Origin: Gordonia iterans
GTDB lineage: Bacteria; Actinomycetota; Actinomycetes; Mycobacteriales; Mycobacteriaceae
NCBI RefSeq assembly: GCF_002993285.1
Contig: NZ_CP027433.1
Span: 1,116,001 to 1,180,000, forward strand
Direction: 5' to 3'
Length of the DNA stretch: 64,000 nt
The position numbers and the translations under genes were made by a program. Position 1 is the first letter of the stretch; every line of letters starts with the position of its first letter. Below are positions 25,225-25,422 of the stretch, one piece after another. Under the pieces are notes generated by a model that had not been told where the DNA came from, ran no database searches, and saw only the letters and a program-made list of their open reading frames with translations.

Positions 25225-25410
25225 CTCAGCTGGCCGGAGTGGGCGGACAGGACTGCGATGAGACCCTGGTCGAGTCAGGCTCCTATCAGGTCACTGCCCA
25301 CCCGGCCAGCAGCCTGGGTGAACGCCACCACCCGGGGTCGACAGGTCAACGCGAAGACACCCGCAGGGCCGGTCGTAGCAGGGGTCAGACACCAGGTGGT
25401 GACGCATACA
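25225..25410 (-). ncRNA. predicted bridge RNA of the IS110 element
   Basis: Read on the minus strand. Target loop: stem CACCACC/GGTGGTG (25395-25401 with 25326-25332) encloses TACGAC (25377-25372), identical to the left target flank plus the core C, and TCGCGTTGA (25354-25346), complementary to the nine bases after the core on the right. Donor loop: a 14-bp stem (25296-25309 with 25230-25244, one bulge) encloses ATAGGAGC (25286-25279), identical to the element's right end plus the core C, and TCGCAG (25258-25253), complementary to the core plus left end CTGCGA. The order is as in IS621. RNA ends are estimated. Confidence 0.8.
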
Positions 25411-25422
25411 CGATCCTCGCAG

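Follow-up and report, generated by a model that had tools for sequence, protein, structure and literature searches.

A predicted bridge RNA with four readable guides in an IS110-type element that splits the YDNA codons of an IS3-family transposase gene in Gordonia iterans

Results

An IS110-type element inside an IS3-family transposase gene

The window (the whole stretch of 64,000 nucleotides analyzed here) comes from the genome of Gordonia iterans, a single contig of 4.0 Mb. It contains an IS110-type element of 1,407 bp (positions 24015-25421, minus strand), delimited by an empty IS3 site in the same genome and by four copies of 1407-1409 bp. The element has a left end of about 200-235 bp, a recombinase ORF of up to 393 amino acids (24041-25222, minus strand) and a right end of 26 bp. 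A C is common to both junctions (24015 and 25422), so that the position of the element ends is ambiguous by one base. The insertion lies in an IS3-family element, also on the minus strand, whose OrfA (PF01527) occupies 26173-26490. OrfB is split into a left part (25422-26158; Pfam HTH_21 and rve), which ends in ...GDSYD and is frameshifted upstream already, and a right part (23775-24014), which begins with NAMAEALNSLYKAEL (NAMAEALNS...). The two frames of OrfB upstream of the insertion (HTH_21 at 25637-26158, rve at 25275-25718) reflect an independent lesion. Directly outside the IS3 end there is a tandem repeat of about eight copies of an 18-bp unit (CAAGCTCAAGGGGCTGGG; 23528-23677). Elsewhere in the window, a tRNA gene (17050-17122) adjoins a phage-type integrase ORF (17137-18405, PF00589); this region, 17050-18405, is probably the edge of an integrated element.

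Empty sites define the element ends

The same genome carries four copies of the IS110 element (L001-L004), all at one IS3 site, and, in a different IS3, one copy with an internal deletion (L005/L009). The first IS3 is also present once uninterrupted (L006/L007), where it reads TTACGACAACGCG / TTACGACAACGCGATGG, without an extra CTT; interrupted, it reads TTACGAC^TGCGAGG at the left and ATAGGAGCTTC^AACGCGATGG at the right (the caret marks the junction). The second IS3, interrupted here, reads GACAGCTACGAC^TGCGAG and GGAGCTTC^AACGCCCTGG (right flank AACGCC), and a congener has it intact, at 99% identity, as TACGACAATGCC, i.e., GACAGCTACGAC^AATGCCCTGG. At the cyanobacterial locus L028, an inverted, intact target, GTTAAGTTGAC^AGTACCG, is found about 110 bp away from the interrupted one, and L048 has a further one; this sequence is perhaps the end of another mobile element. 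The intact sites of the same genome, the congener and the cyanobacterial locus read TACGAC^AAYGC or GTTGAC^AGTACC. Because the empty sites hold no extra bases, no CT is duplicated upon insertion: TTC belongs to the element, except for at most one shared C, and the right end of the element is ATAGGAGCTT(C). The right terminus ATAGGAGCTTC (24015-24025, minus strand) consists of a block matched by a guide, T-T and the shared C, and TTC or ATC remains with the element at unrelated insertion sites. In a relative on a Rhodococcus plasmid (L192), the left junction fits (CGTACGAC^TGCGAGC), and the search pattern for the right end gave no match. The 64-kb window has no further exact target, and three matches with one mismatch against 1.27 expected.

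The four insertions at one site might go back to a single IS110 insertion multiplied by movement of the IS3, and would then be uninformative on target choice. Three copies, all within the same IS3, are identical but for at most 1 of 1407 bases, and for these three the explanation may well be true. The fourth, L004, differs at 29-30 of 1409 aligned IS110 positions, whereas it agrees with L002, L003 and the empty copy in the IS3 flanks, across about 1.1 kb on the left and 0.3 kb on the right. A different IS3 was moreover struck at the same codons (L009), and 22 further insertions in other genomes lie at these codons as well. As an account of all four insertions, multiplication by the IS3 therefore seems somewhat unlikely to us.

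The recombinase is homologous to that of IS621

The ORF bears the IS110 hallmark, a DEDD RuvC-like N-terminal domain and a C-terminal domain with a conserved serine (PF01548 and PF02371); a second ATG, at 25186, is the start in several close relatives. Across 13 aligned proteins, E81, D120 and D123 are invariant and D28 and S307 nearly so, the serine sitting in a G--P----SG motif. A search of the PDB with the single sequence gave no match at E 1, and the profile of the 13 sequences matched IS621 (8wt6, E 9.4e-10) and ISCro4 (9t56, E 1.8e-9). The top Foldseek match of an AlphaFold2 model (mean pLDDT 78.9) is IS621. ISCro4 resembles our recombinase in both profile and fold, but is shorter (341 amino acids in the chain). 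No relatives were found in viral contigs (tblastn) or, at E 1e-10, in phage records.

The left end folds into two guide-bearing loops

We predict a bridge RNA at 25223-25405 (minus strand; 5' end placed from the position of the -10 element), with a target-binding stem-loop (arms 25384-25405 and 25322-25342) followed by a donor-binding one (arms 25290-25314 and 25223-25248). The left end folds at -99.9 kcal/mol (z -3.27), and none of 200 shuffles folds equally well. We aligned 17 sequences from Actinomycetota, Cyanobacteria, Alphaproteobacteria, one Acidobacteria bin and one Chloroflexi bin: 94.5% of 652 pair cells form, compared to 83.5% in shuffles, and changes on both sides of a pair number 74 versus 23.5. 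Slid versions of the structure pair in only 28-47% of cells. The first-pass annotation had read this left end as two loops holding the guides of an IS110 bridge RNA, and both the fold and the covarying pairs bear this out. As to the covariance-model search it had proposed, a model built on our own alignment recovers the RNA in relatives (17 of 59 genomes of the genus, 53 of 301 in the family sample and 42 of 396 in the phylum sample, own genome included each time), while no curated Rfam family reached its gathering score there: the sole match in the window is a tRNA elsewhere, and the best one in the RNA region (E 0.66) is far under that score.

The window copy folds without a separate hairpin ahead of the target loop such as the 5' stem-loop of IS621; the relatives L026 and L080 carry extra sequence 5' of the target loop. 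The left donor guide also pairs with the RNA itself (25253-25286; AGGA with UCCU, CUG with CAG), forming helix 5, in which 100% of cells are paired. In L041, an altered guide, AGAA, is matched by TTCT in the RNA. This self-pairing might close the donor loop while no donor is bound. One locus, L138 (G093:C12:330000-334200), has two matches to the model in tandem, about 120 bp apart.

Four guides match the target and the element ends

All guides are read on the minus strand. The left target guide is GCTACGAC (25372-25379), whose TACGAC (25372-25377) is identical to the left flank as far as the shared C; this identity had been recognized before, with the last base wrongly taken as the first of a CT core. 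The right target guide, TCGCGTTG (25347-25354), is complementary to the shared C and AACGCGA of the target. The pairing had been described over nine bases, of which the ninth, as judged from the empty sites, pairs the element and not the target. The handshake nucleotides of the target loop are at 25345-25346, and their A is complementary to the T of the element's right end. The left donor guide, ATAGGAGC (25279-25286), equals right-end bases 24018-24025. The annotated identity with the right end is thus correct, but the guide match stops three bases inside the boundary and does not include a core C. The right donor guide is CATCGCAG (25253-25260), whose last six bases, TCGCAG, are complementary to CTGCGA, as annotated; this is the shared C plus the left end TGCGA, not a CT core plus left end. 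The handshake nucleotides of the donor loop, TC (25251-25252), are complementary to the target GA just left of the shared C.

The first-pass annotation had suggested that the target guides should covary with insertion sites, and they do. Once guides have been anchored to the fold, agreement of the left target guide with its own flank reaches 5.65 of 7 positions (permuted mean 3.22, maximum of 1000 permutations 3.66; 62 distinct guides from 109 loci), and the right one pairs at 4.09 of 6 (permuted mean 2.37, maximum 2.98; 46 distinct guides), in permutations that ignore the relatedness of loci. The strength of this result depends on the anchoring, since unanchored sliding gives a weak signal: the own guide beats 95% of the others in 47 of 109 loci for the left target guide and in 9 of 80 for the right. 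Out of 150 model hits, 10 were unparsed, and 113 (109 unique) were retained after parsing. Excluded by hand were 21 named loci (one among the 10 unparsed) whose left end an earlier parse had misplaced, some of which, e.g., L056 and L068, are plausibly placed in a later parse. Rows with a left flank below eight bases or containing N, and rows above the mismatch limit, were dropped too. L012, without a model hit of its own, was assigned the coordinates of its twin L011; the partial hits L038, L042 and the second in L097 were omitted, and so were 16 of 78 rows of model hits in the family sample and 14 of 60 in the phylum sample. Without the hand exclusions, the values are 5.32 versus 3.17 permuted for the left target guide (71 guides) and 4.11 versus 2.40 for the right (54 guides).

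In the donor-loop handshake, the second base pairs the flank in 80 of 84 loci (permuted maximum 53) and the first in 71 of 84 (permuted maximum 68), in agreement with IS621, where handshake guides pair positions 7 and 6 of the partner DNA. The left donor guide changes together with the right end: AGAAGGGC, ATAGAAGC, ATAGGAAC and ATAGGGGC are each found in both. Among the 21 distinct pairs listed, 8 are identical over all eight bases, and several differ in one or two. A distant relative, L104 (RNA at 1501-1705, minus strand), has the donor guide AGAAGGGC and the same sequence in its right end; its target guides match partly, and it splits HSD^KGCQYT, which we take to resemble the second-D segment of an IS3 transposase.

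The two junctions share a single C

With the shared C numbered as position 8, donor and target have different bases at position 9 in 62 of 80 loci. Among these 62, the right target guide pairs the base of the right junction in 59 and that of the left junction in 2; the right donor guide pairs the left base in 61, a count that is partly circular, as the left end was located with that very guide. Taking one locus per distinct guide pair, with no exclusions by hand, 28 of 32 fit, versus 3 with the assignment swapped. The base before the C is T in 80 of 80 right ends, where the search pattern allowed T or C, whereas at the left junction it is A in 65, G in 11, T in 2 and C in 2, and tracks the target. 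Since base 9 differs between the junctions, fitting its own guide at each, and the base before the C differs too, only the single C can be shared. At the left junction it is present in 108 of 109 loci, a figure partly built into the parser; the sole T, in L017, falls at a GAT codon. Locating the left end through the right donor guide, forced to end in G, means that neither the left-junction C nor the pairing of this guide is independent evidence. In all 53 loci giving one clear match, among 109 examined, the right end is the left donor guide followed by N-T-C; a clear match was an exact seven-base match to this guide with TTGA upstream, found once in the locus, and the NTC ending was left unconstrained.

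As a control, we read two E. coli plasmid records of IS621 in the same way and found ACAGTATC in the left end, ACAGTAT^CT in the right end, and CT at both junctions. The reading method recovers the published IS621 layout. As read from sequence, our branch departs from this layout in having two additional bases that separate the guide block from the shared C. On how to number the shared C in IS621 terms, the evidence is divided: the handshake nucleotides favor position 8, whereas the 1-nt linker that follows the left target guide and the tolerance of mismatches at position 7 of the left donor favor position 9.

The same data might be produced by IS621 chemistry, with a cut after position 9 and a two-base overlap, if the mismatch at position 9 were always resolved in favor of the donor on the left and of the target on the right. 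IS621 does cut after T9 according to the available part of its description (PMC11208158), placing the shared C at position 8 brings the handshake layout into line with IS621 numbering, and the position of the strand cut is not visible from sequence alone. The repair bias would have to be very strong, since the swapped assignment fits only 2 and 0 of the 62 mismatched loci. We consider this explanation unlikely.

A promoter might form when the element ends are joined

The right end contains a -35-like TTGAAA (24030-24035, minus strand) and the left end a weak -10-like GAGGAT (25413-25418, minus strand; 3 of 6 positions), which would stand 18 nt apart if the ends abut in a circle. When right and left ends are joined, a -35-like sequence in the right end (at least 4 of 6) and a -10-like sequence in the left end are spaced by 17-18 nt in 79 of 81 loci, the -10 of the window copy reaching only 3 of 6. 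The mean promoter score is 9.06, compared to 3.53 for shuffled ends (maximum 4.30). A plain promoter scan of the integrated element found none. The pattern of the circle junction matched two viral contigs and 6 of 396 genomes, where no bridge RNA was recognized in the following 110-250 bases, so that none is taken as a circle; the match in L182 resembles a right end followed by unrelated TGTGAG.

This spacing bears on the layout originally proposed for the element, which was IS621-like with a duplicated CT core, a target TACGA-CT-TCAACGCG, a donor ATAGGAG-CT-GCGA and a circle junction ATAGGAGCTGCGA. Such a circle would shorten the distance between -35 and -10 by three, to 14-15 nt. The proposal had some appeal, as it brings ATAGGAGC and TCGCAG together at a single CT, and the RNA has the spacing of IS621 (8-nt guide, 2-nt linker, stem). 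The extra bases it implies are nevertheless missing from two different intact IS3 sites and from the cyanobacterial site, and TTC or ATC stays in the element at unrelated sites. We regard a duplicated CT core as very improbable: the empty sites overturn the assignment of core and ends, not the RNA, and ends lying elsewhere than at a duplicated CT had been named in the first-pass annotation itself as a refutation. The deviation reported with it, CC in the guides against CT in the DNA, is a register error, the core having been placed three bases off, and the CTT divided there between core and target is the element's own.

Insertions with guides of this type fall mostly at the same codons of transposase-like genes

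We collected the loci whose RNA carries TA(C/T)GA(C/G) and GC(A/G)TTG as target guides. Among 25 distinct insertions, 23 split [YFW]D^N[AV] in frame in transposase-like genes, 20 of 22 when only insertions with both flanks read are counted. The 25 are possibly 24, since L022 could represent the second half of L020 or L023. The exceptions, L010 and L019, lie outside transposases. The interrupted proteins vary (NALAETVNGYY, NALMESFWGSM, NAMAESFFSAL, NALMENFFSTL and others); the Pfam test of the interrupted gene was done for the window IS3 alone. The YDNA segment is, we assume, located just before the catalytic Glu of DDE transposases.

Other relatives have other sites. The cyanobacterial L028 and L030 lie at TTAAGTTGAC^AGTACC and L031 at TTAAGTTGAC^AATTTG. 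In genome G031, a related element is found six times beside GAGCCTCGAGAC (L059, L069, L075, L077, L078 and L079), and the 15-mer GACGAGCCTCGAGAC occurs 217 times with at most one mismatch, versus 2 for the reversed control. By analogy, this element may be a repeat-targeting cousin, much as IS621 targets REP sequences.

Discussion

We consider it quite probable that the IS110-type element, inserted in the YDNA segment of an IS3 transposase gene where the Asp codon meets the Asn codon, is guided to this site and to its own ends by the predicted bridge RNA of its left end. An RNA with four readable guides is well supported by the fold, the compensatory changes, the covariation of guides and flanks, the handshake nucleotides, and a recombinase homologous to IS621. 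That the site is instead chosen by protein alone, the fold being regulatory and the guide matches due to coincidence or descent, appears highly improbable: the RNA is a prediction here, and ancestry common to related copies survives our permutations, but guides and flanks change together across phyla and targets, e.g., at TTAAGTTGAC^AGTACC in cyanobacteria, at CTTCGTGGC versus CTTCGAGGC with guides matching each, and at GGATTG versus CAATCC in Parafrankia.

By homology to IS621, the element with its bridge RNA would excise as a circle, joining the right end ...ATAGGAGCTTC to the left end TGCGAGG... and thereby the -35 to the -10, which would switch on the RNA. The complex of recombinase and RNA would then bring the circle and the target together for strand exchange. 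The junctions place the exchange point at the one shared C: the next base on its right is the donor's on the left side and the target's on the right side. As the target guides match Tyr-Asp-Asn-Ala codons, the RNA would send the element into other transposons.

The system resembles IS621 in having the RNA in a long left end, a target loop followed by a donor loop, two guides per loop and handshake nucleotides, the latter described for IS621 in the portion of that work available to us (PMC11208158). The 8-nt left donor guide with its 2-nt linker and stem, the homologous DEDD/serine recombinase, and the -35-like sequence in the right end with a -10-like one in the left end are also alike. It differs in that IS621 has CT common to both junctions, whereas here there is one C, with base 9 usually differing between donor and target, and in that the IS621 left donor guide runs into the core, whereas here the guide match is set back by two bases. 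Unlike in the IS1111 group, whose RNA lies downstream, the RNA is upstream of the gene and the right end is of 26 bp. ISEc21, an IS110-family element with a seekRNA, is reported in the available text (PMC11187229) to have its target at the codons around the second D in transposases of the IS3 family. It is similar to our element, as far as that text goes, in its upstream non-coding RNA, its target in catalytic codons of IS3-family transposases and the lack of target duplication. Aiming at IS3 transposase codons is thus already known from ISEc21, in the part of the report accessible to us; the codons differ, being those around the second D of the DDE triad there and YD^NA here. In the available part of another paper (PMC2516522), a Leifsonia IS110 element is named, and we found no case of IS110 within IS3.

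One shared C together with a set-back donor guide is apparently a new form of bridge RNA. ISAar29 comes from an actinobacterium. It is, with ISPpu10 and others, one of the diverse elements with predicted bridge RNAs, six of them in Extended Data Figure 10c, that the accessible text of Durrant et al. presents (PMC11208160). These elements may already display the register seen here. The same source, in the part available, states that boundaries with a CT core were prioritized in the covariation set (PMC11208160). We found no statement on a one-base core or a set-back donor guide in the available texts of PMC11208158, PMC11208160 and PMC11187229, nor in literature titles and abstract openings, a survey in which subscription papers fell mostly outside the scope.

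We see about even chances for a broader proposal, that the IS110-proper branch with recombinases of 393 amino acids forms a one-base-core class: a single C would be shared, each loop would read the neighboring base on its own, with no exchange of that base at any time, and the donor guide would be displaced by two bases. One lineage of it would have its RNA programmed against DDE catalytic codons and live by insertion into rival transposons of many families.

Bridge RNAs are under development as tools for programmable insertion; by the rule known so far, donor and target have a CT core in common and the guides reach it. If donor and target need to share only one base, the CT constraint would be relaxed and another placement of the guides would be needed. 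With about 80 loci for which both ends are at hand, the register is directly testable. The choice of targets, finally, suggests that RNA-guided elements may read conserved protein motifs at the DNA level to attack other transposons.
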